From: Clostridia bacterium
Lineage (GTDB): Bacteria > Bacillota > Clostridia > Lachnospirales > Lachnospiraceae
Length of the DNA stretch: 32,658 nucleotides
Direction: 5' to 3'
Assembly (NCBI GenBank): GCA_003252135.1
Contig: QKDK01000272.1
Location: 1-32,658, forward strand
Each line of letters starts with the position of its first letter. Positions within the stretch are counted from its first letter, which is position 1. Shown here piece by piece: positions 3,498 to 15,365 of the stretch. Under the pieces are notes generated by a model, which was given only the letters and a program-made list of their open reading frames with translations, was not told the origin of the DNA and did not search any database. The translations under genes were made by a program, and so were the position numbers.

Positions 3498-4685
3498 ATG
3501 TTAAAAGTCAATGAAATTATGCAGCTTTCCCTCTTTAAGAATTTCAAATTTGTTTGTGGTGAAGACGGACTTGATAATCCCGTTGTCTGCGTTGTAATTC
3601 TTGAATATGAAAGTATACAGACCAATTATGAAGGATTTAATACCGGTGATTTTGTCTTAGCTTCTTTATTTTTTACCCGTGATACACCGGATTTCGTGTA
3701 TAAAGCACTGGAAACCGTAATCAAGCGCCGTGTCTCAGCTATTGCTTTAAAGACGACCTTTTCAGAAGCCATCCCGCAGTATCTGATTGAGCTCGCTGCT
3801 GAGTATAATGTCCCTTTGTTTACATTTTCCAATGCGTACATGGAAGATCTGATTATTAATATCAATGAATCTTTGAAAACAAAATCACAATATCTGGTCT
3901 ACGAAGAAAAGCTGCATAATATTATTGACACCTCTCCAGATCCTCATACGGTTAAAAATGTTGCCAAAGAAATCAATCCGACATTTCATCCCTATCTTTT
4001 CACCGCATACATTACGCCGATAGATGAAGTCAGCAGCATAACCATTCACTCCTACTTCAAACGGCTTGTTTATAAGCAGTTCCGGGACAGGAACAGCTAT
4101 GATTATTCCTTTGTAAAATACAATTCCGGAATCATACTGATTTACTCCTATCCTGATACAAGCATTCCAAAGCCTGATTCTTTACTTTTCATGATCGAAT
4201 CTCTGCTGACAGAAATTGAATTCAATCCGGCTACATTTTATATCGGGATCAGTGACATACCTGCAAAATTATCAACACTGGATGTATCGGTGCGGCATGC
4301 CATCTATACTAATTTTGTCTGCAGGAAAAACCAGGAGCACAGCATACATTATACGCAGACTGGTATTTATCAATATCTGCTGCCGCTGGTCTACAGTCCG
4401 CTGGTCTATCATAATGTACGTGAAAAAATCAATCTGCTGATTGAGTATGATTCCTCTTATTCATCCAATCTGCTGGACACAATGATTGTATATATTAAGA
4501 ATAACGGTGATATAAAACAGACGTCGAGCGAGATCTTTCAGCACACGAACACTGTCCGGTACAGAATAAAGAAAGCTGCTTCTATTCTTTCTCTTGACGA
4601 GGAAAACAGCTATGAATCACTCTTTTTACTGATCTCCATCTACACACTGCACCAGCAGATCAAAGTCGATTATCCTGAAGACTGA
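3498..4685 (+). CDS. PucR family transcriptional regulator
   Basis: A 395-residue DNA-binding regulator. Residues 1 to about 125 match the PucR N-terminal ligand-sensing domain (starts MLKVNEIMQLSLFKNFK, contains GDFVLASLFF). A middle CdaR/GGDEF-like region follows, and the C-terminus (about 325-385) carries the PucR/CdaR helix-turn-helix with NNGDIKQTSSEIFQHTNTVRYRIKKA. PucR proteins control purine, sugar-acid or amino-acid use and usually respond to a small metabolite. The ribosome binding site is AAAGGGAG. The gene converges on the sda genes across a shared terminator, so its target is not obvious from position. The opp-sda operon and the downstream catabolic genes are candidates only. Confidence 0.88.
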   Translation: MLKVNEIMQLSLFKNFKFVCGEDGLDNPVVCVVILEYESIQTNYEGFNTGDFVLASLFFTRDTPDFVYKALETVIKRRVSAIALKTTFSEAIPQYLIELAAEYNVPLFTFSNAYMEDLIININESLKTKSQYLVYEEKLHNIIDTSPDPHTVKNVAKEINPTFHPYLFTAYITPIDEVSSITIHSYFKRLVYKQFRDRNSYDYSFVKYNSGIILIYSYPDTSIPKPDSLLFMIESLLTEIEFNPATFYIGISDIPAKLSTLDVSVRHAIYTNFVCRKNQEHSIHYTQTGIYQYLLPLVYSPLVYHNVREKINLLIEYDSSYSSNLLDTMIVYIKNNGDIKQTSSEIFQHTNTVRYRIKKAASILSLDEENSYESLFLLISIYTLHQQIKVDYPED

Positions 4686-4712: not shown

Positions 4713-4760
4713 AAAAAAGCCCCTTATATCAGCTTATTCTGCTGATATAAGAGGCTTTTT
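4713..4760. terminator. Bidirectional intrinsic terminator between pucR-like gene and sdaAA
   Basis: The stem GCCCCTTATATCAGC pairs with GCTGATATAAGAGGC around a 7-base loop, flanked by A6 on one side and T5 on the other. It works in both directions, ending the regulator transcript and the long minus-strand opp-sda transcript. Confidence 0.88.
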
Positions 4761-4776
4761 CCGTTACCCGTTACCC

Positions 4777-5664
4777 TTACCCTTGTTCTCTTGTAACAGC
4801 TCTCAGCTGTTTTACAATTTCCTGTCCGGTCGGCGTATTGCCAAGACCGCCTTCTCCAGTCTCACGAAGCTTTGCGACCATGGCATCACCAACTTCACGC
4901 ATGGCATCAATTACTTCGTCCGGCGGAATTCTGCTTGTTATACCTGCAACTGCCATGTCTGCACAGGTGACTGCGTTCACAGCACCTACCACATTACGCT
5001 TCACGCATGGCACCTCCACCAGCCCTGCGACCGGATCGCAGACCAGTCCCAGCAGATTTTTTAATGCCATGGCTGCTGCATGGGTAATCTGTAAAGCAGA
5101 TCCGCCGCGAAGATGAACGATTGCACCTGCTGCCATGGCACTTGCCGATCCGATCTCCGCCTGACAGCCGCCTGCTGCTCCTGATATATATGCTCTGGCT
5201 GCAAGCACTTCACCGATTCCCGCAGCAACGAAAAGGGCTTCCACCAGCATGTCTTCCCTGCATTCATACTGCTCCTGATAAGTCAGCAGTACAGCGGGAA
5301 GTACTCCGCAGGCTCCTGCTGTTGGTGCTGCAACAATTTTTTTCATACAGGCGTTGGATTCGCCCATTTTAACAGCCTTCTCCATGACTTTCGACATAAA
5401 CATACCGCTGATCAGCTTGTCCTTTGCGATTGCCTGTGCTATCTTCTCCCCATCTTTTCCGACGAGTCCGCTGGCCGAGCATAGTGATTTATCATATCCT
5501 TCGTCAGCCTGTTTCATATGATGGTACATGGACTGCATTAATGCAAATGCCTCCTGCTCTGACATCATGCGTTCATCACATTCATCTTCCAGTATGATCT
5601 TCCAAAACGGTTTCTGCTGACTGACAGAAAGGGTTTCGATTTCCTTTAATGATTTAAAACTCAT
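4777..5664 (-). CDS. sdaAA: L-serine dehydratase, iron-sulfur type, alpha subunit
   Basis: Catalytic subunit of the two-chain anaerobic L-serine dehydratase, which converts serine to pyruvate and ammonia using a [4Fe-4S] cluster. At 295 residues it is full length. The core motifs are present: AAPTAGACGVLPAV (about 112-125), GAAGGCQAEIG with C167, and CDPVAGLVEVPC with C209 and C220, which match the three cluster ligands known for this family. The start overlaps the end of sdaAB by 11 bases. It is the last gene before the terminator at 4713-4760. In this context serine probably comes from peptides imported by the upstream Opp system. Confidence 0.96.
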   Translation of the reverse strand: MSFKSLKEIETLSVSQQKPFWKIILEDECDERMMSEQEAFALMQSMYHHMKQADEGYDKSLCSASGLVGKDGEKIAQAIAKDKLISGMFMSKVMEKAVKMGESNACMKKIVAAPTAGACGVLPAVLLTYQEQYECREDMLVEALFVAAGIGEVLAARAYISGAAGGCQAEIGSASAMAAGAIVHLRGGSALQITHAAAMALKNLLGLVCDPVAGLVEVPCVKRNVVGAVNAVTCADMAVAGITSRIPPDEVIDAMREVGDAMVAKLRETGEGGLGNTPTGQEIVKQLRAVTREQG

Positions 5665-6328
5665 TTTTTTCCTCCATGCTCAGATAGGTGACCTTCACAA
5701 TACCTTCCAGTTTTCTTAACCAGTCAAGAGCTTCCAGCGGTATCTCCTGGTCACATTCGATCACCATGACAGCGTTTCCGCCTCTTCTGTCCCTGAAAAG
5801 CTGCATTTCTGCTATGTTTACAGATTTGTGGCCCAGCATGGAAGTTACCTCTGAAACATGTCCTGGCTGGTCAATATTATGCACGATCAGTGTCGGATAC
5901 ATCGCACAGATATTTGCTTCCAGTCCGTCAATGCTGCAGATCTTTATAGCCCCGCCACCCAAAGAAGATGCCACGATTTCAAGTTCCATTCCATGAACTC
6001 CCTGTAATCGCAGCATCACACTATTTGGATGTACATCCCTCAATTCAATTCCGTGAAAATGATACTCCAGTCCTTTTTGCTTTGCTATATTCAGACTGTC
6101 TGGTATTCTTTCATCGTCAGCCTTCATCCCTAAAAGACCGGCAATCAGAGCCTTATCTGTTCCGTGACCTTTCCCTGTAGCAAGAAATGATCCATGCAGA
6201 TATATCCTGGCTGACCTGATTTCTTCTCTGATCAGCTGTCTTGCAATGAATCCTATCTTGACCGCCCCCGCAGTATGGGAGCTGGAAGGACCGATCATAA
6301 CAGGCCCTATGATTTCAAATGCATTCAT
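5654..6328 (-). CDS. sdaAB: L-serine dehydratase, iron-sulfur type, beta subunit
   Basis: Regulatory partner of SdaAA, 224 residues. The family signature IGPVMIGPSSSHTAGAVKIG is at the N-terminus. The C-terminal part (from about residue 145, LIVHNIDQPGHVSEVTSMLG) is an ACT domain that binds serine in related enzymes. The only Shine-Dalgarno-like sequence (GAGAGG) lies unusually far from the ATG, about 14 bases, so translation may rely on coupling with the upstream small gene, whose stop codon is 26 bases away. The gene order sdaAB-sdaAA with an 11-base overlap is the usual one in Firmicutes. Confidence 0.95.
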   Translation of the reverse strand: MNAFEIIGPVMIGPSSSHTAGAVKIGFIARQLIREEIRSARIYLHGSFLATGKGHGTDKALIAGLLGMKADDERIPDSLNIAKQKGLEYHFHGIELRDVHPNSVMLRLQGVHGMELEIVASSLGGGAIKICSIDGLEANICAMYPTLIVHNIDQPGHVSEVTSMLGHKSVNIAEMQLFRDRRGGNAVMVIECDQEIPLEALDWLRKLEGIVKVTYLSMEEKNEF

Positions 6329-6354: not shown

Positions 6355-6759
6355 TTACCCCAGAACTCTCCGGCAACTTTCGAGCAATTCTTTAACTTCT
6401 GATGGTTGTATATAGATTACCGGATTTTCGCCCTTATCCAGTTCAAGGATCATAGCAAATTTGCTGCCCCAGTCATTCATTGTGACCTTCTTTAGTATTC
6501 CGTCTTTGGGATATCTTGCCTGATTGACTTCTTTCAGGGTATCTCCCATGATTGCATACCCAAAGATCACGCTTAAGGCATCTTTATAATAACTCAGTGA
6601 CTTCGCAAAAGGCTCCGTCATATTTATTACTACCTTAATTTCAGAAATTCCGCCTTCGATAAAAATACCGTCATCGCGTACAATTCTGAATTTCTCAGGA
6701 TCAAAATAATCCTTCAATGATGCAAATAATACATCGTCGTTTTTCGTGTCCTGTGTCAT
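6355..6759 (-). CDS. Uncharacterised 134-residue protein
   Basis: I do not recognise this family. It is a small, soluble, acidic protein without a signal peptide or membrane segment. It looks like an alpha/beta fold, with alternating strands such as FRIVRDDGIFIEGGISEIKVVINM and a C-terminal helix PSEVKELLESCRRVLG. The ORF track start at 6765 is unlikely because GGGAGG abuts that ATG; the second ATG at 6759 has correct 6-base spacing. The start sits right after the stop codon of the MATE gene, so the two are translationally coupled, and sdaAB follows after 26 bases. Codon use and composition match the neighbours. Confidence 0.75.
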   Translation of the reverse strand: MTQDTKNDDVLFASLKDYFDPEKFRIVRDDGIFIEGGISEIKVVINMTEPFAKSLSYYKDALSVIFGYAIMGDTLKEVNQARYPKDGILKKVTMNDWGSKFAMILELDKGENPVIYIQPSEVKELLESCRRVLG

Positions 6760-6761
6760 TT

Positions 6762-8108
6762 TCATCCTCCCGCAAAATTAGTTATTTCTTCTCGCTTACG
6801 CTTCATCTCCTGATGATGTCTCATATACATAAATACCGCTGCAATATTCAGAAAGCACTGCGATATTGTCGTGGATATCCAGATTCCATTCATCCCGTAT
6901 AGTCTCGGAAGGATGAGCAGCAGCAGCGGAGTCAGCAGCAGCGGATCAAAATATATCATGAACAGAGAATATTTATTCTTGCCAACGGCATAAAAATAGG
7001 AGTTCGAGATCCTGACGAGTCCGGTAAATACAAGCTGTGTCGCACTGATCATCAGGGGCCAGTAGGATTGCTCCTTCACCTCTTTGGAAACTCCAAATAT
7101 TGCCGGGTAGTACTTTGCTGTTGCAACGGTAAATAAAAATAAAAATACACTGACTGCAACTGCTGTAAAGATCCCTTTATTTCTGATGCGCATCATGGAA
7201 TCATAGTCTCTGGCACCCGCAGATACACTGGCCAGCGGCTGCACACCTTCCGCTACACCGATCAAGATCATTCGATATGCACCGATTGTCGCAGAAATCA
7301 GTGAATAGATTGCAATTCCGACATCGCCGCCATATTTGATGCACTGCACATTATTATACAATATCAGAAGTGATGGTGTCAAAGAAATTCCAAAAGGAGA
7401 TATCCCGATCCGTAACATCTTACTGATCAGTGCCGGTTTGACCTTAAACTGTGAGAAATGAATAGGACGGACTTTATTCCGCAGAAGAGTTACCACACAG
7501 CTGATAACAGTTATCATCTGTGACGAAAGTGTTGCTATCGCTGCACCTTTGATTCCCATTTTCAGTACATAAATGAGAAGATAATCAAGAATAACATTAC
7601 ATATCATACCCACGACCATGATTGACATTGCAGAAACGACTTTGTTGTCATTTCTGAGTATCGGTGTAAGACCAGCCGCAAACATCTGGATAGAGCATCC
7701 ATAAATCATGATCCTGCCATACTCCATGGCATAATTGTACAGTTCCCCCTCTGCACCCATCATACGAAGCAGACTGGGCAGTAAAAAGGAAGAAATAAGT
7801 GTGATAAAACCACTTAAAACAATAAGCACGATCAGAATGTTGGCTCTTGCTATATCAGATTCCTCAGGCTTCCCCTCACCCTGCCTGGTGGACATGATTA
7901 CTGCTCCGCCGCATCCGATTCCGGTCCCTATAGCTACAATCACTGCGAGGATCGGCCATACAACATAAACTGCTGCAAGACCTTTATCCCCGACAAGATT
8001 GCTGATAAAGAGGCTGTCCACAAGGGAGTACAATGTTGTTATCAGCATGGTGACCATGGATGTAAACACGTAGGTAAAAAACTTCTTTTCTGATAACTTT
8101 TGCTCCAT
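6762..8108 (-). CDS. MATE family efflux transporter
   Basis: An integral membrane exporter of 448 residues with about 12 hydrophobic segments, the normal size and topology of the multidrug and toxin extrusion family driven by sodium or protons. Family signs are an N-terminal TMLITTLYSLVDSLFISNLVG, followed by GIGCGGAVIMSTRQGEG, and the matching second-half repeat with SVSAGARDYDSMMRIR. The ribosome binding site AAAGGGG is 8 bases before the ATG. It lies 38 bases after oppA with no terminator between, so it appears to belong to the opp-sda operon. The substrate is unknown; export of a peptide-derived amino acid or toxic by-product is a guess from context. Confidence 0.92.
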   Translation of the reverse strand: MEQKLSEKKFFTYVFTSMVTMLITTLYSLVDSLFISNLVGDKGLAAVYVVWPILAVIVAIGTGIGCGGAVIMSTRQGEGKPEESDIARANILIVLIVLSGFITLISSFLLPSLLRMMGAEGELYNYAMEYGRIMIYGCSIQMFAAGLTPILRNDNKVVSAMSIMVVGMICNVILDYLLIYVLKMGIKGAAIATLSSQMITVISCVVTLLRNKVRPIHFSQFKVKPALISKMLRIGISPFGISLTPSLLILYNNVQCIKYGGDVGIAIYSLISATIGAYRMILIGVAEGVQPLASVSAGARDYDSMMRIRNKGIFTAVAVSVFLFLFTVATAKYYPAIFGVSKEVKEQSYWPLMISATQLVFTGLVRISNSYFYAVGKNKYSLFMIYFDPLLLTPLLLLILPRLYGMNGIWISTTISQCFLNIAAVFMYMRHHQEMKRKREEITNFAGG

Positions 8109-8146: not shown

Positions 8147-9820
8147 CTACTGTGTGATATCTGCAAATCTAAAGTCAAGATATCCCATTACATAATTTGT
8201 CTGGCCGGTAATGCTTGGGTTGACAAGGTAAAGCGATTTTGTTGTGAACAAAGGACAGATTACAGTATCTTCTGAAACAAGAATCTTTTCTGCTTCCTGT
8301 AACAGTGCCTGACGTGCTGCAGTATCCATTTCACTTGCTGATTCTGTCATGATCTGGTTGTATTCATCGTTTAACCAGCTAATATCGTTCTGTGAGTTAC
8401 CATCGCGGTACATATCGAGCCATGTAGCAGGGTCATTGTAGTCACCTGTCCACTGATGACGGGCAAGCTGAAGCTCTCCGGCTCTTCTTGCATCTACATA
8501 CACTTCATATTCCATAGCATTTAATTCTACTGTAACACCAAGCTGCTGCCATTGTGCCTGAAGTACCTGCGCAACGTCTGCTTCATAGCTCATGGATGGA
8601 TAGGTATAGGTTATGGTAGGAAGTCCTTCCCCGTTAGGGTAACCTGCGTCTGCAAGCAGCTGTTTCGCAGCTTCAATGTTCTCATCAAGAAGAGCTCCCT
8701 GTAAATCAGACCATTTTGTTCCGTCGACCTTGCTCTTATAGTTCGCAGCAACGAAGGTCGTAGAAGGTGTGTAGCAGCTTCCGATTACATCACAGATGCC
8801 CTGTCTGCTTACCGCAAGGGCAAATGCCTGACGGACTCTAACATCATCAAACGGAGCCATATTGATATTGAATAAAATATAGTTCGTTACTAATACATCC
8901 GCTGACTGAAGATCTGCCTGATCTGCGTACTGGTCTTCCACATAGTAAGGAGCACCGCTCAAGATGTCGATTTCACCAGTCTTGTATGCTGAAGTCTTCG
9001 CCTGGTCATCATCCATGAATTTAAAGGTAAGTGTATCAAATTTAACTGCATCACGATCAGAGTAGTATTCATTCGGTGCGAAGGTTATGTATTCACCTGA
9101 TTTGTAATCGCTCATGTGATATGGTCCGTTACCAAGGTTCTTTGTTACATCTGTATCCCAGCCTTCATCTGCATTCGTTGCATATGTAACATTAGATGGC
9201 ATGTAAACTGGCAGACGTACATAATCAAGGAAGTTTGCACAAGGAGAAGCAAGTGTGAAAATAATTGTCAGATCATCCGGGCATTCAACACCGATATCAT
9301 CAATGGAAGCTGTTCCGTTAAATGCATCTGAAGCACCTTTGATTAAAAACAGAGCGTCAACATACCATGCACCTTTTGCAGGGTCAAGGGCACGCGTGAT
9401 TGTGTTTAAGAAATCCGCAGATGTTACTTTACTTCCGTCTGACCAGTAACCATCTTCTTTTAAGTGGAATGTCCATACGGAACCATCTTCGTTCGCTTCC
9501 CAGCTTGTTGCCGCTGCAGGAATTACAGTTCCTTCTTCATCATAATCGATCAGACCTTCCAGACAGTAGCTCTGTAAGTCAAAGTAAACATATGCTGTTG
9601 CTCCAGCCGGATCATACTCACCATTTTCTGGCTGTTCTGAGCAAATTATGTTTTTAGCATCACCACTGGTTGCTGTTTCGGTGCTGCCAGATGCTGCTGC
9701 ATCTGTTACATTGGAAGACCCTGTGTTTGAACTGTTTCCGGCATTGTCGCCGCATGCTACAAGTCCAAATACCATTGCGCTGCATAAAAGCGCTGCGATT
9801 ACTTTCTTAAAATTTTTCAT
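8147..9820 (-). CDS. oppA: Peptide ABC transporter substrate-binding lipoprotein (OppA-like)
   Basis: Extracellular peptide-binding protein of the SBP family 5, 557 residues. The N-terminus is a lipoprotein signal peptide (KKVIAALLCSAMVFGLVAC) with lipobox LVAC and C23 as the lipidated residue. It is followed by a Ser/Thr/Ala/Gly-rich linker of about 35 residues that tethers the binding domain to the membrane. The family core is visible at AATSWEANEDGSVWTFHLKE and at VRQAFALAVSRQGI. The ribosome binding site is GGAGG, 5 bases upstream. It is the fifth opp gene, 110 bases after oppF; no terminator is seen in that gap. The exact peptide specificity cannot be read. Confidence 0.93.
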   Translation of the reverse strand: MKNFKKVIAALLCSAMVFGLVACGDNAGNSSNTGSSNVTDAAASGSTETATSGDAKNIICSEQPENGEYDPAGATAYVYFDLQSYCLEGLIDYDEEGTVIPAAATSWEANEDGSVWTFHLKEDGYWSDGSKVTSADFLNTITRALDPAKGAWYVDALFLIKGASDAFNGTASIDDIGVECPDDLTIIFTLASPCANFLDYVRLPVYMPSNVTYATNADEGWDTDVTKNLGNGPYHMSDYKSGEYITFAPNEYYSDRDAVKFDTLTFKFMDDDQAKTSAYKTGEIDILSGAPYYVEDQYADQADLQSADVLVTNYILFNINMAPFDDVRVRQAFALAVSRQGICDVIGSCYTPSTTFVAANYKSKVDGTKWSDLQGALLDENIEAAKQLLADAGYPNGEGLPTITYTYPSMSYEADVAQVLQAQWQQLGVTVELNAMEYEVYVDARRAGELQLARHQWTGDYNDPATWLDMYRDGNSQNDISWLNDEYNQIMTESASEMDTAARQALLQEAEKILVSEDTVICPLFTTKSLYLVNPSITGQTNYVMGYLDFRFADITQ

Positions 9821-9930: not shown

Positions 9931-10893
9931 TTAGTCTGCTGCATATAAGAAACATGCAACCTTTCTGCCTTCAAAATCGACCATCTCTGGTTTTTTTCTG
10001 CGGCATTCTTCTGTAGCGTGTGCACATCGTCCGGCAAAAGCACATCCTGGCGGCGGGTTCAACGGGCTTGGAACCTCTCCCTCCAGTATGATTCTTGATT
10101 TTGCCCGGGACTGATTTGGATCTGGAATTGGTGCTGCAGAGATTAAAGCTCTTGTATATGGATGCAGCGGATTCTTATAAATATCATCCGAGCTGCCATA
10201 TTCAACTAGATTGCCCAGGTACATAACGCCGATCTTATGACTGATGTGATGAACCATGCCAAGATCGTGAGCTATAAATAAATAGCTGATACCTGTTTCC
10301 TTCTGGATTCTTTCCAGTAAATTGATGATCTGCGCCTGAATGGATACATCAAGCGCCGAGATCGGTTCATCGCAGACAATGAAATCCGGCTGCAGGGTAA
10401 GTGTTCTTGCAATTCCGATTCTCTGTCTCTGTCCGCCGGAAAACTCGTGCGGGTATCTTCTGATATGATCAGGTTTCAGTCCTACCGTTTCGATCAGATC
10501 CTGAACCTTTGCTTTTCTTTCTTCCGGTGTGCCTATTTTATGGATGATCATTGGTTCTTCAATAATATCACCGATTGTAAATCTCGGATTCAATGATGCA
10601 TAAGGATCCTGAAAGATCATCTGCATCTTTTTTCTATAAGGAAGCATCTGCTTTCTTGACAGGCCGGTGATATCCCTGCCGTTAAATATGATCTGTCCGC
10701 TTGTCGGTTCGTATATCTTTAATATCGTTCTTCCCATGGTGCTTTTTCCGCAGCCGGATTCACCAACGATGCCCAGTGTCTCTCCTTTGTTCAGTGTCAG
10801 ACTGACATTGTTCACCGCATGTACTTTTTTTCCGCCCTTGACAGGAAAGACCTTCGATAAATTATTCAACTCCAGTATGGGTTTTTCATTCAT
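9931..10893 (-). CDS. oppF: Oligopeptide ABC transporter ATP-binding protein (OppF-like)
   Basis: Second ATPase of the peptide importer, 320 residues. Walker A is GESGCGKST, the signature is FSGGQRQR, and Walker B is FIVCDEPISALD. The C-terminal extension has the Cys-rich CAFAGRCAHATEEC seen in Opp/Dpp ATPases, a region that in related DppD binds an iron-sulfur cluster. Its start overlaps the end of oppD by 8 bases. Together with OppD it forms the cytoplasmic motor under the OppB/OppC channel. Confidence 0.95.
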   Translation of the reverse strand: MNEKPILELNNLSKVFPVKGGKKVHAVNNVSLTLNKGETLGIVGESGCGKSTMGRTILKIYEPTSGQIIFNGRDITGLSRKQMLPYRKKMQMIFQDPYASLNPRFTIGDIIEEPMIIHKIGTPEERKAKVQDLIETVGLKPDHIRRYPHEFSGGQRQRIGIARTLTLQPDFIVCDEPISALDVSIQAQIINLLERIQKETGISYLFIAHDLGMVHHISHKIGVMYLGNLVEYGSSDDIYKNPLHPYTRALISAAPIPDPNQSRAKSRIILEGEVPSPLNPPPGCAFAGRCAHATEECRRKKPEMVDFEGRKVACFLYAAD

Positions 10894-11923
10894 TGGCTTT
10901 CTCTCCTTCCAGTACCTCCTGGTAACGATCTCTGCAGTAGAGCCAGCAATTACATTTATGTGTCTTTGAAAACTCAGTTTTCAAAGGATTGTAATCCTGG
11001 CATATCGCCATAGCTTCAGAGCATCGTGCCGTAAAAGGACATCCTTTTTTTAGTTTCAAAAGATCGGGCGGGGTTCCCGGAATAGGCTTTAATGGTTCTT
11101 TTTTATCACCTTCACTGTTTGAGATACTATTGAGAAGTCCTCTGGTGTACGGATGTTTCGGTTCATAAAAAATCTCATCTGTTGTTCCTTCTTCCATAAT
11201 ATTGCCGCCGTACATGATACTGATTCTGTCACACATGGATGCAACAACACCAAGATCATGGGTGATCATTATGACGCCGGTCTCTGTTTTTTTCGTCAGA
11301 TTCTTGATCAGTTCCAGTATCTGCGCCTGTACGGTAACATCCAGTGCTGTTGTAGGTTCATCAGCAATGATCAGTTTCGGGTTACAGGCCAGTGCGATAG
11401 CTATGATGATACGCTGTCTCATACCGCCTGAAAATTCATAAGGATATTGTTTGAGCCTGCTTTCGGGGGAAGGAATACCCACCAGGTTCATCAGCTCAAC
11501 TGCTCTTTTCTCTGCCTCTTTTTTTGTAATTTTTTCGTGACAGAGAATTCCTTCGGTCATTTGTCTGCCTATGGTAATGATCGGGTTCAGAAAGGACATC
11601 GGATCCTGAAAAATCATTCCAATATCATTTCCCCTGATTGCCCGCATTCTTGTTTCATATGCTCTTTTTTTCTTTCTAGAGTCAAGTCCAGAGGGTGTGA
11701 TATCTTCCCCGTCAAAGAGGATGGTTCCTTCTACAACACTGCCATTTTCAGCAAGCAGTCCCATCAGGGAAAGCATACCAACGCTCTTTCCAGACCCGGA
11801 TTCTCCTACGATTCCCAGAATTTCGCCTTTTTCCAGCGTATAATCGATTCCGCGGATTGCTTTGACAATTCCCTGGCTTGTTTTAAATTCTGTTGTCAGT
11901 CCTTTTATCTCTAATAGACTCAT
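10886..11923 (-). CDS. oppD: Oligopeptide ABC transporter ATP-binding protein (OppD-like)
   Basis: First ATPase of the importer, 345 residues. Walker A is GESGSGKSV (Val replaces the more usual Thr at the end, common in OppD), the signature is FSGGMRQR, and Walker B is LIIADEPTTALD. The C-terminal CPFTARCSEAMAIC is the Cys-rich extension of the peptide transporter subfamily. The ribosome binding site AGGAG precedes the ATG. Eleven bases separate it from oppC and it overlaps oppF by 8 bases, so the operon is tightly coupled. Confidence 0.95.
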   Translation of the reverse strand: MSLLEIKGLTTEFKTSQGIVKAIRGIDYTLEKGEILGIVGESGSGKSVGMLSLMGLLAENGSVVEGTILFDGEDITPSGLDSRKKKRAYETRMRAIRGNDIGMIFQDPMSFLNPIITIGRQMTEGILCHEKITKKEAEKRAVELMNLVGIPSPESRLKQYPYEFSGGMRQRIIIAIALACNPKLIIADEPTTALDVTVQAQILELIKNLTKKTETGVIMITHDLGVVASMCDRISIMYGGNIMEEGTTDEIFYEPKHPYTRGLLNSISNSEGDKKEPLKPIPGTPPDLLKLKKGCPFTARCSEAMAICQDYNPLKTEFSKTHKCNCWLYCRDRYQEVLEGEKANE

Positions 11924-11934
11924 CGCATCATCTC

Positions 11935-12852
11935 CTAACGTTTTGCTTTTGGATCCAGTGCTGTTCCTAATCCCTCACCGACAAAGTTGAAGGCAAAGAT
12001 TGTTATACAGATAGCAAGCATAGGGTAAGCAGTCTGCATCGGGTAGATCTCGATCAATGCACGGGCATCCTGCGCCAGTGTTCCCCAGCTGGCAAGCGGT
12101 GCCGAAATACCTACACCAAGGAAACTTAACCAGGCTTCCGTAAAGATAGCCTGCGGTACCATCAGTGTTACGGTAACGATAATCTGTCCCACTGTATTAA
12201 CGAGCAGATGCTTGAATAGAATTCGTTTATCACTGGCACCGATGACAAAGGCTGCCATGGCAAATTCCTGTTCTTTCAGGCTCCTGACCTCCTGCCTTAC
12301 GATTCTTGCCATATCAATCCAGCTTGAAATTGAAATACCGATCATTACACTGGTAACGCTGGCACCAAAGATCAGCATGATCAAAACAATATAAAGCATT
12401 GCGGGTACAGAATAGATAATATCTACAATACGCATCATCAGCATGTCTGTCTTCCCGCCGATATATCCGGAAATACCGCCGTAAACAGTTCCGATAACAA
12501 GATTGATGATAGCTGCTACAAGCCCGACCATTAAGCTGATTCGTGCTCCATACAGAATTCTTACAAAGATATCCCGTCCGAATTTATCTGTTCCAAACCA
12601 GTGTGCAGCGCTTGGTGCCGCATTTTTTAAGGCTGTATTTTGTGTTTCATAGGAATAAGGACTGATCATTGGTCCAAATATTGCAAGCAGAATAACAATC
12701 AGTAAGATGACAGCTCCTGCCAGTGCTCTTTTATTATGTCTGAAATTCTTCATTGCTGCCTGCAGGAAGGTCTGGCTCTCAACAGCGATGAACTCATCAT
12801 TTTTTTCTTCTGCTTCCAGCTTGCGAAACAGTATCGCTTCTCTGTCGTCCAT
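11935..12852 (-). CDS. oppC: Oligopeptide ABC transporter permease (OppC-like)
   Basis: Inner-membrane permease of 305 residues. The N-terminal cytoplasmic tail is followed by a first membrane helix (ALAGAVILLIVILLAIFGPMISP) and the characteristic HWFGTDKFGRDIFVRILYGARISL sequence of DppC/OppC proteins. The EAA loop reads EAWLSFLGVGISAPLASWG. The length and roughly six membrane helices fit the family. The ribosome binding site GAGGAGG is near the ATG, 12 bases after oppB. Confidence 0.95.
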   Translation of the reverse strand: MDDREAILFRKLEAEEKNDEFIAVESQTFLQAAMKNFRHNKRALAGAVILLIVILLAIFGPMISPYSYETQNTALKNAAPSAAHWFGTDKFGRDIFVRILYGARISLMVGLVAAIINLVIGTVYGGISGYIGGKTDMLMMRIVDIIYSVPAMLYIVLIMLIFGASVTSVMIGISISSWIDMARIVRQEVRSLKEQEFAMAAFVIGASDKRILFKHLLVNTVGQIIVTVTLMVPQAIFTEAWLSFLGVGISAPLASWGTLAQDARALIEIYPMQTAYPMLAICITIFAFNFVGEGLGTALDPKAKR

Positions 12853-12864
12853 AACATTCCTCCT

Positions 12865-13791
12865 CTACAGTGTATTTTTAATCCGGGGATCTACAAAGGA
12901 ACAGATCAGGTCAGAAATCATATTACATATTATGATAATTGCGCCAATGAAAATGGTGATTCCCATAACCAGTGTGTAGTCGTGGTTACTTATGGCGTTA
13001 ACAAATTCTTTTCCGATTCCGGGAATTGTATACAGGTTTTCGATAACAACACTGCCGGTAAGAAGAAATGCAACCATCGGTCCCATATAGGTAATGACTG
13101 GAAGAAGTGCATTTTTCAGAATATGGCGAAAAGTAATGGCACTGCTGCTTAGCCCTTTTGCTTTTGCCATTGTTACATAATCCTGACGCATGACATCTTC
13201 ATAGCTAGTCTGGGTAAGTCTGGCCACAGCTGATATCGGATAGAGTCCCTGTGCAATTGCAGGCAGCACGTAATTCATCGGAGTGTCAAGACCAAGGACC
13301 GGAAACCAGCGAAGCTGTACACCAAAGATAATGAGCAGCAGCAGCGCCACGATAAAGTTTGGCACGCTTACACCAAGTGTCAGACCAGAAAGCCAGAGTC
13401 CTCTTATAAAATTACTTTTTGTCTTTGCCATGGCAATACCGGCACTGACGCCTACAACGAGGGTCAATATAAAAGTAACAATACCGAGACGAAGTGTTGG
13501 CTGGATTCTTGAAAGTATTATATCTGTAACCTCAGTACCGACTTTTTTGTAGGAAGTTCCGAAATCTCCATGCAGCAGGTTCTTGCAGTATATAAAGAAC
13601 TGTTCGATTACAGGTTTATTCAGCCCGTATTTTTCTTCCATCTTTTCGAGTACTTCACCAGAAACATTTTTCGATTGCAGTGGACTACCCGGCATCAATT
13701 TGGTCATTGCAAATGTTATTGCTACTAGAACAAAAAGCGTTAAAACTCCGATACCGATTCGTTTTATCAGATATTTAACCAAAGCCCGCAC
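12865..13791 (-). CDS. oppB: Oligopeptide ABC transporter permease (OppB-like)
   Basis: First permease of the importer and first gene of the operon, about 308 residues. After a short basic start (KYLIKRIGIGV) come the first membrane helix and the family motif FAMTKLMPGSPL; the conserved C-terminal part includes VVIENLYTIPGIGKEFVNAI. The ORF track ATG at 13824 would place the start inside the hairpin at 13809-13848. The GTG at 13791 with AGGA 6 bases upstream, or a TTG at 13782 with AAGGTG 6 bases upstream, are both more likely; homologues usually begin close to KYLIKR. The upstream leader is about 250 bases long and structured. Confidence 0.92.
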   Translation of the reverse strand: MRALVKYLIKRIGIGVLTLFVLVAITFAMTKLMPGSPLQSKNVSGEVLEKMEEKYGLNKPVIEQFFIYCKNLLHGDFGTSYKKVGTEVTDIILSRIQPTLRLGIVTFILTLVVGVSAGIAMAKTKSNFIRGLWLSGLTLGVSVPNFIVALLLLIIFGVQLRWFPVLGLDTPMNYVLPAIAQGLYPISAVARLTQTSYEDVMRQDYVTMAKAKGLSSSAITFRHILKNALLPVITYMGPMVAFLLTGSVVIENLYTIPGIGKEFVNAISNHDYTLVMGITIFIGAIIIICNMISDLICSFVDPRIKNTL

Positions 13792-13808
13792 CTTCTTTCC
13801 TGTTATTT

Positions 13809-13848
13809 CAAAATAAAATGACAACGAGGTCTAATGACTCCGTTGTCA
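13809..13848 (-). terminator. Second hairpin with T-rich tail in the opp leader
   Basis: On the minus strand TGACAACG and CGTTGTCA form a perfect 8-base-pair stem with a 14-base loop, followed directly by TTTTATTTT. It looks like an intrinsic terminator and lies just upstream of the oppB ribosome binding site, so it may attenuate the operon. The T tract is interrupted by one A, so strength is uncertain. Confidence 0.5.
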
Positions 13849-13876
13849 GTAAAAGCAGTATTTTCATTTTTAAAAT

Positions 13877-13888
13877 TGTAACGTTACA
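13877..13888. promoter_or_regulatory. Perfect 12-base palindrome TGTAACGTTACA in the opp leader
   Basis: A perfect palindrome with a central CG, the layout of LacI-family operators. On the minus strand it partly overlaps a possible -10 sequence TACAAT, with a TTGCAC 19 bases upstream, so it could control a second opp promoter. The link to a LacI-type repressor is inference. Confidence 0.4.
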
Positions 13889-13948
13889 TATAAATCATGG
13901 TGCAATTTACGAACACAAATAAATATACATGGTTCTTATGTTTGTTAC

Positions 13949-13978
13949 TTACATCCATAAATCAATCAGCGAATACAT
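13949..13978 (-). CDS. Possible 9-residue leader peptide in the opp leader
   Basis: Between the two hairpins of the opp leader a nine-codon frame (MYSLIDLWM, then TAA) starts 6 bases after an AAAGG Shine-Dalgarno sequence. Leader peptides of this size occur in attenuated operons, but a frame this short can arise by chance. It has no run of one amino acid that would suggest a specific signal. Confidence 0.2.
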   Translation of the reverse strand: MYSLIDLWM

Positions 13979-13999
13979 CACAAACCTTTATAAAACTTT

Positions 14000-14033
14000 A
14001 AAAAAAAGAGCGCCTAAACATGAGTTTAAGCGC
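14000..14033 (-). terminator. Promoter-proximal intrinsic terminator / attenuator of the opp operon
   Basis: The minus strand reads GCGCTTAAAC, loop TCAT, GTTTAGGCGC (ten pairs, one G-U), C or T, then a run of eight T. There is no minus-strand gene upstream whose transcript it could end; the dehydrogenase upstream is divergent. The hairpin begins about 16 bases after the predicted opp transcription start, so it most likely controls read-through into the operon. Confidence 0.7.
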
Positions 14034-14055
14034 CGTTGCATCTTTCATGTGACTA

Positions 14056-14084
14056 TTATTAGCACATAATTTTTCTTCTGTCAA
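14056..14084 (-). promoter_or_regulatory. Promoter of the opp-MATE-sda operon
   Basis: Minus-strand TTGACA, 17 bases, TAATAA. Predicted start near 14049. It is divergent from the dehydrogenase promoter at 14165-14193. The leader to oppB is roughly 250 bases and holds two terminator-like hairpins, a palindrome and a possible leader peptide. Confidence 0.65.
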
Positions 14085-14193: not shown

Positions 14194-14291
14194 ATAGGCT
14201 AGCGAAAAGTCACACCCCTTTATATTTATTGAAAGTAACAACTGTTTCTTTACCAACCATTAACTTAATCAATAATGAAAAGGAGATTACT

Positions 14292-15302
14292 ATGAAAGTA
14301 GTCGTTATTCAGGAATCGTCCCTGCAGATCGATAATATAGCTGCAGAGATCACAGAACATTGGAAAGCACTTGCACATATACCGGAAGTTACAGAGCTTG
14401 TTATCAAAACTCCGGATCATTACCCTTTTGGAGATGAACTGCATGAAATAATTGGTGATGCAGATATTGTCTTCGGCGTCTGGATTTCATCTTACTGTAT
14501 CAATGCAGATTTTTTAAGCAAGCATCCAAATCTTAAATACATCGCAACACTGGGACACGGCTGGGAAGAATTCGATGTGCCCATGACAAGAGAAAAAGGT
14601 ATCACGATCACAAATACCATCTATGGTTCACAGACGATCGCAGAATATGCTTGGTCACTTCTTATGGAAGTCTGTCATCACACACACATCCATTCAGAAT
14701 ATCTAAAGAATGTTGACTGGACAAAACCAAACGGAGGTGACGCCGCATTTACAAGACTGCTTACACCTCAGATCGAACTTTATGGACAGACAATTGGTAT
14801 TGTAGGTCTTGGCTCTATAGGCTTTGCTCTTGCCAAGATGGCACAGGGCTTTGGTATGAAGGTTCTTTCCTTTAGCCGTAATAAAAAGACCGGTGCTGAA
14901 TATGATTTCATTGAACAGGTATCTTTTGACGAACTGCTTAAAAGAAGTGATGTGATATCTTTGCACGCCCCATTTTCTGCAAGCAGTGCTGATATGATCA
15001 ACAAAGAAACAATCGCAAAGATGAAGGATGGTGTTATTCTGATCAATACTGCCAGAGGTGGTCTTATCGTAGAAGAAGATCTGTATGATGCTTTGAAAAG
15101 CGGCAAAATATACGGCGCAGGACTTGATGTTGTTCGCGATGAGCCTCCAAAGGCTGATATTCCATTGTTTCATTGTGAAAATGCCATTATTACCGGTCAT
15201 ATTGCCTGGCTTACAAGAGCATCCAGACTTCGTGCAACCGATATGGCTATCGAAAACTTTAGGGCATATCTGGCCGGAACACCTGTTTCTGTAATAAATT
15301 AA
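14292..15302 (+). CDS. D-isomer-specific 2-hydroxyacid dehydrogenase
   Basis: NAD(H)-dependent enzyme of the D-2-hydroxyacid dehydrogenase family, which interconverts 2-oxoacids and D-2-hydroxyacids. The Rossmann motif GLGSIG is at residues 172-177. The catalytic triad is in place: R255 in NTARGG, E284 in RDEPP, and H303 in TGHIAW. The 336-residue length is normal. The TTG-initiated extension in the ORF track (14229) is rejected because AGGAG sits 6 bases before the ATG at 14292. The gene has its own promoter and terminator. It resembles hydroxypyruvate/glycerate reductases, but the active-site surroundings do not settle the substrate. Given the ior/paaK operon nearby, reduction of arylpyruvate to aryl-lactate is a testable alternative. 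Confidence 0.92.
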   Translation: MKVVVIQESSLQIDNIAAEITEHWKALAHIPEVTELVIKTPDHYPFGDELHEIIGDADIVFGVWISSYCINADFLSKHPNLKYIATLGHGWEEFDVPMTREKGITITNTIYGSQTIAEYAWSLLMEVCHHTHIHSEYLKNVDWTKPNGGDAAFTRLLTPQIELYGQTIGIVGLGSIGFALAKMAQGFGMKVLSFSRNKKTGAEYDFIEQVSFDELLKRSDVISLHAPFSASSADMINKETIAKMKDGVILINTARGGLIVEEDLYDALKSGKIYGAGLDVVRDEPPKADIPLFHCENAIITGHIAWLTRASRLRATDMAIENFRAYLAGTPVSVIN

Positions 15303-15323
15303 CAATGTAGCTGTAGTTTGAAC

Positions 15324-15365
15324 AAAAGGCAAAGGGATTTTACATCTTCCTTTGCCTTTTCTTTG
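15324..15365 (+). terminator. Intrinsic terminator after the dehydrogenase gene
   Basis: AAAAGGCAAAGGGA and TCCTTTGCCTTTT form a stem of about 12 pairs followed by TTTTCTTT. It closes the dehydrogenase transcript and could act on both strands. Confidence 0.85.

Follow-up and report, generated by a model that had tools for sequence, protein, structure and literature searches.

The window analyzed here, a whole stretch of 32,658 nucleotides from a genome of the Lachnospiraceae (contig QKDK01000272.1), carries on its minus strand an operon of nine genes running from oppB at 13782 to sdaAA at 4777. The leader of this operon raises the question of why two hairpins resembling intrinsic terminators should stand between a promoter and its first gene. 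The original prediction had taken the arrangement to suggest attenuation of the nine-gene operon, for which a protein or an antiterminator based on the nascent RNA would be needed and not a large riboswitch. Comparative evidence supports attenuation by two serial terminators and points to a protein that acts on the RNA as it is made, and the curated covariance models of Rfam, applied to the window at the gathering threshold, match only tRNA and 23S rRNA and no riboswitch. The leader is probably a serial attenuation switch run by a glnA-linked ANTAR protein, in a promoter-proximal variant with a single hexaloop per terminator.

Organization of the opp Operon and Its Leader

The features of the operon and its leader are collected in Table 1. 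The last two genes encode both subunits of an iron-sulfur L-serine dehydratase, and the 136-amino-acid protein encoded ahead of them shows no match in Pfam or NCBIfam. Convergent to the operon lies a gene for a PucR-type regulator (3498 to 4685, plus strand), at which no hexaloop terminator is seen; relatives of this regulator beside opp in Treponema (L016 and L021, minus strand) are accompanied by one. At the end of the contig (31566 to 32658, minus strand), the 3' end of a 23S rRNA gene is followed by a cluster of seven tRNA genes.

Table 1. Features of the opp operon and its leader in the window
Feature	Position	Strand	Basis or remark
Sigma-70-like promoter TTGACA-18-AATAAT	14055..14084	-	Promoter scan; both hexamers unchanged in L010
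Hexaloop 1, GC[AACGGC]GC	14030..14039 (loop 14037-14032)	-	Identical in L010
Terminator hairpin T1	14009..14034	-	Fold versus shuffles; pairing maintained in L010
Hexaloop 2, TGAC[AACGGA]GTCA	13835..13848 (loop 13844-13839)	-	Candidate antiterminator hairpin
Terminator hairpin T2, tail ATTTTATTTTG	13819..13848	-	Fold and covariation
Shine-Dalgarno sequence of oppB, GGAAAGAAGG	13791..13800	-	Start TTG 13782-13780; homology alignment from residue 1
oppB	12865..13782	-	Homology
oppC	11935..12852	-	Homology
oppD	10886..11923	-	Homology
oppF	9931..10893	-	Homology
oppA-like substrate-binding protein	8147..9820	-	Homology
MATE-family transporter	6762..8108	-	Homology
136-aa protein, between MATE and serine dehydratase genes	6355..6765	-	
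sdaAB, L-serine dehydratase beta subunit	5654..6328	-	Exceeds family cutoff
sdaAA, L-serine dehydratase alpha subunit	4777..5664	-	Exceeds family cutoff
Operon-end terminator	4714..4760	-	

The promoter hexamers TTGACA (14084 to 14079) and AATAAT (14060 to 14055) are separated by a spacer of 18 nt and agree with the consensus at 11 of 12 positions, placing the predicted transcription start at about 14050 to 14048. The predicted hairpin with a run of eight T's close to the start is confirmed: T1 begins 14 to 16 nt past the predicted start and consists of 11 pairs followed by C and T8 (14007 to 14000), and its fold of -16.2 kcal/mol (z score of -3.56) is equaled by none of 200 shuffles. The second hairpin, which had been placed shortly ahead of oppB, is likewise borne out, with a fold of -15.4 kcal/mol and a z score of -4.86 against shuffles. 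The interrupted T run of T2 made it escape a simple terminator scan, yet the hairpin is supported both by its fold and by covariation among orthologues. The neighboring gene upstream (14229 to 15302, plus strand) is divergent from the opp operon, so that, as predicted, no upstream gene needs termination here.

Bare site counts in the region are not enriched over shuffled sequence (6 promoter-like sites versus 8.9 and 4 terminator-like sites versus 2.1); the case for the promoter and the terminators rests on their conservation. A promoter downstream of 14000, named beforehand as the arrangement that would make T1 irrelevant, is disfavored: the promoter and T1 are kept in L010, and the interval between T1 and T2 contains no promoter comparable to TTGACA-18-AATAAT, the best other one being TTGCAC-19-TACAAT with a score of 6.1 versus 9.9. 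The same interval contains a perfect palindrome, TGTAACGTTACA, at 13888 to 13877, which is operator-like or due to chance and was dropped as an operator because it is missing from L010.

Hexaloops Overlapping the Terminators

Each terminator overlaps a small stem-loop with a loop of six nucleotides, hexaloop 1 with the 5' arm of T1 and hexaloop 2 with T2, and the pairings are mutually exclusive. Both loops begin with A and have G as their fourth base (A1 and G4), as in the ANTAR elements of the eut, ami, and nas leaders (PMC3369931), and share with those elements the exclusivity with an intrinsic terminator. SELEX with NasR selects the same A1 and G4 together with a closing C:G pair (PMC7496416). 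Hexaloop 2 has the stem of an ANTAR element, with at least three pairs and a closing C:G. Hexaloop 1 shows A1, G4, and the closing C:G, with a stem of only two pairs before a U-U mismatch (-0.7 kcal/mol), which makes its assignment less certain than that of hexaloop 2.

Conservation of the Leader in Relatives

One comparison is offered by L010, a leader from the metagenome-assembled genome SZUA-610 on a contig identical to G001:C42. Its promoter hexamers are identical, as are the bases from TGTGCTAATAAT through CATGTTT, and no base differs from the -10 region up to and including the T1 loop. In the 3' arm of T1, two adjacent stem bases are changed and both are still paired. The interval between T1 and T2 is diverged and shorter, leaving the loops ∼106 nt apart compared to 193 nt here. 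A search of relatives with the leader DNA finds it in G001/L010 only; the remaining matches are short and AT rich and were rejected as chance.

Among Lachnospiraceae, other Clostridia, and Treponema, further orthologous opp leaders contain a terminator directly 5' of oppB. T2, not T1, is common to all orthologous leaders; T1 is known from two opp leaders only, within one genus. The covariance analysis of relatives' leaders that had been proposed as a check was carried out on 12 leaders from Clostridia and Treponema, and both the T2 terminator and its hexaloop stem covary. Across these leaders, 93.7% of the cells of T2 are paired, with changes on both sides at 8 of its 12 pairs. The aligned 5' arms read GRC-[AANGRN]-GYC, with A1 in 11, G4 in all 12, and the closing C:G in all 12. 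Pairing in the small stem holds in 36 of 36 cells, with its middle pair varying among G-C, A-U, and G-U. A terminator as such has no need of conserved GRC-AANGRN-GYC letters. In the close relative G001, an element CAAC[AAAGAA]GTTG (L074, G001:C24:61989-62040) precedes a second, paralogous opp operon and sits directly behind the preceding gene.

Nitrogen Genes, Tandem Copies, and Promoter Proximity

Elements of the same kind were sought in two steps, first with a covariance model built on T2 and then by testing the matches for the hexaloop. The genome of the window itself has one ahead of the P-II gene (G000:C319), and elsewhere, in many gut Clostridia and Treponema, the element precedes nitrogen-assimilation genes, among them amtB, ureA (urease), GSIII, gltB, asnB, gdhA, and a PucR regulator gene. 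Other genes behind it encode a serine dehydratase subunit, CTP synthase, an Na-alanine symporter, and the second opp operon. A gene of the PEP-synthase/PPDK_N type is also repeatedly found with a hexaloop terminator (L083 in G003:C47 and L130 in G348:C157).

The double terminator arrangement is a recurring design, since tandem terminators with a hexaloop on each also precede asnB (L064, L078, and L094) and gltB (L095) in Treponema as well as GSIII (L286, from the Clostridia genome G247, and L073). The distance from loop to loop in these other tandem leaders is 87 to 216 nt. A T1 of the Treponema tandems, CAAGC[AAAGAC]GCTTG, directly follows a TTGAAA-17-TATATT promoter.

Closeness to the promoter is likewise shared. 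Among 44 elements, counted without the T2 copies of tandem leaders, 24 have a promoter with a score of at least 8 and a loop that begins 10 to 26 nt past its -10 box, mostly 13 to 17 nt, compared to 1.0% of shuffled sequences and none of 24 control terminators (Fisher P = 1.8e-6). The published ANTAR motif consists of two hairpins, P1 and P2, joined by a linker of 5 to 12 nt, and altering the linker or removing P1 ends control (PMC3369931, PMC8934654). In the 24 promoter-proximal elements, only ∼5 to 21 nt of RNA lies 5' of the loop, which is too near the RNA start to leave room for P1. None of these 24 leaders has, ahead of the loop, another A1/G4 hexaloop on a stem of two or more pairs, and none of 27 other elements has one on a stem of three or more pairs 5 to 12 nt upstream; all 51 elements checked thus lack the dual-hairpin organization.

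The ANTAR Protein and an Independent Pattern Test

Exactly one ANTAR protein is encoded in the genome of the window (G000:C150:9322-9480), in each of three congeners, and in all 12 orthologue genomes. At every locus inspected, its gene lies directly 3' of the glutamine synthetase gene glnA. In five genomes (L214 to L218, in G238, G204, G303, G254, and G136), a hexaloop hairpin with a stem of seven pairs and no terminator is found upstream of glnA, where the glnA-ANTAR mRNA is predicted to begin; its stem sequence varies while the pairing is maintained. This comparison suggests that the glnA-ANTAR mRNA may be autoregulated by another route, possibly translation or stability.

The terminator-shaped model R1 was judged not specific enough to detect the element throughout the class, as it also picks ordinary terminators in genomes without an ANTAR protein; its match at 15322 to 15364 in the window is a plain terminator lacking the loop stem. 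In place of R1, detection relied on tests for the hexaloop and the pattern. The pattern joins a -10 box to the hexaloop (TATRAT-N5-12-GRCAAHGRNGYC) and was applied to a broad sample of 293 Clostridia genomes, 156 of which encode an ANTAR protein. It matches 99 times, compared to 41 for a control with C at loop position 4 and 41 with the hexaloop reverse complemented. An overlapping terminator follows 15 of 59 matches in genomes with an ANTAR protein, 1 of 35 in genomes without, and 1 of 40 for the control with G4 changed to C. Taken without the terminator criterion, the pattern is mildly enriched in ANTAR-positive genomes (P = 0.03, or 0.006 with TATAAT). The pattern match in the genome of the window, at C150:5902-5926, lies within an open reading frame and was set aside as chance.

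Proposed Mechanism

By default, RNA polymerase would drop off at T1, ∼45 nt from the start, and polymerase leaking past T1 would mostly drop off at T2. An active ANTAR protein would bind each hexaloop hairpin as it exits from the polymerase, and the bound hexaloop would tie up the 5' arm of that terminator in the alternative pairing, blocking the terminator. With the terminators blocked, the opp-MATE-sda operon would be transcribed. One hexaloop per terminator would have to suffice for this antitermination, and a pair of serial switches would be less leaky. Nitrogen status presumably provides the signal, because the element accompanies nitrogen genes. The opp operon would be tied to this status along with P-II, amtB, urease, GSIII, gltB, asnB, and gdhA, and peptide import together with serine deamination would release ammonium.

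Several points count against this ANTAR reading. EutV needs P1 for antitermination (PMC3369931), and the affinity of NasR for a lone hairpin is about ten times weaker (PMC7496416), so that both the absence of P1 and the weak single-hairpin binding speak against a single-hexaloop site. The weak stem of hexaloop 1, the presence of T1 in two leaders only, the matches of R1 to ordinary terminators, and the mild enrichment in ANTAR-positive genomes weigh in the same direction. A single loop is physically plausible, since a crystal structure shows one hexaloop contacted by both domains of an EutV dimer (PMC8934654).

Alternative Explanations

A canonical dual-hairpin ANTAR site, in which hexaloops 1 and 2 serve as P1 and P2, respectively, and are bridged by a dimer, with T1 incidental, would agree with the two ANTAR-type loops per leader found here and in the asnB, gltB, and GSIII leaders. 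It is very unlikely given the spacing of the loops, which is 193 nt here, ∼106 nt in L010, and 87 to 216 nt in the others, compared to 5 to 12 nt in eut, where a longer linker abolishes antitermination by EutV (PMC3369931, PMC8934654); many leaders, moreover, have a single loop, located at the RNA 5' end. A reader of the same stem-loop other than ANTAR, such as another RNA-binding protein, a small RNA, or an antiterminator of the LoaP/NusG type, is unlikely. The link of ANTAR to these RNAs is indirect and the published ANTAR sites comprise two hairpins, which leaves some room for such a factor, but the loop consensus equals that of ANTAR in A1, G4, and the closing C:G, every genome of the set encodes one ANTAR protein, and terminators after the pattern are almost confined to ANTAR-positive genomes. 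Control by LoaP or a small RNA was considered, and no evidence for either was found.

The stem could also be read as DNA, namely, as a GRC-N6-GYC inverted repeat near the start that serves as operator for a repressor, with the terminators as a separate matter. Its dyad symmetry and its location 10 to 26 nt past the -10 box, a typical operator position, fit this reading, which is nevertheless highly improbable: the signal is orientation specific, the reverse-complemented loop remaining at background (41 versus 99), the T2 copies lie 60 to 220 nt downstream, and the position of the element coincides with terminators. The longer hexaloop stems of the glnA leaders, in addition, differ in sequence and stay paired, and the association with ANTAR would be left aside. 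A constitutive role of T1 and T2 as insulation from upstream transcription, with loop letters arising by chance, is scarcely credible. Strong terminators are common, and the raw count of terminator-like sites does not exceed that of shuffles, but the promoter of the operon itself precedes T1, the gene on the upstream side is transcribed divergently, and the loop letters are kept across phyla in a nitrogen-gene context.

Relation to Known Systems and Implications

The serial attenuation switch proposed here resembles the eut leaders of Enterococcus faecalis, controlled by EutV/EutW, in its A1/G4 hexaloop exclusive with an intrinsic terminator (PMC3369931, PMC8934654), and the EutV/EutW system also shares a receiver-type ANTAR protein and several terminators per regulon. 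In contrast to eut, which needs two hairpins and a linker of 5 to 12 nt, only the terminator-overlapping hairpin is present here, often no more than ∼15 nt from the 5' end of the RNA. The nasF leader of Klebsiella oxytoca, read by NasR, shows the same closing C:G, A1, and G4, the terminator overlap, and nitrogen genes, but it has two hairpins, and NasR is a one-component nitrate sensor that is not a neighbor of glnA (PMC7496416). ANTAR regulons predicted by covariance, as in Desulfotomaculum acetoxidans, likewise comprise P-II, ammonium transport, urea, and glutamate and glutamine synthase genes (PMC3369931). They were found with a dual-hairpin model, and published searches of this type would miss single-hexaloop elements such as those here. 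On the sequence evidence, the leader has the loop and the terminator overlap of the published ANTAR family and occurs with an ANTAR protein, lacks the dual hairpin, and is best filed as a variant.

With slightly better than even probability, these elements form a P1-less ANTAR class, in which a hexaloop located in about the first 20 nt of the RNA is fused to a terminator, often doubled, for general nitrogen control in Clostridia and Treponema. The class would be run by the glnA-adjacent ANTAR protein, which would also act on the glnA mRNA that encodes it, through a version free of a terminator. Neither a promoter-proximal ANTAR class with one hexaloop nor a single-hairpin glnA-ANTAR regulon was found described in the searchable open literature, which does not prove that no such description exists.

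According to work on EutV and NasR, two hairpins separated by a short and fixed distance are required, yet the crystal structure shows a dimer on one hexaloop. Natural single-hexaloop sites, if true, would make this contradiction directly testable and would provide a short, simple, and strongly patterned element for target prediction. They would also give gut Clostridia and Treponema a circuit of global nitrogen control.
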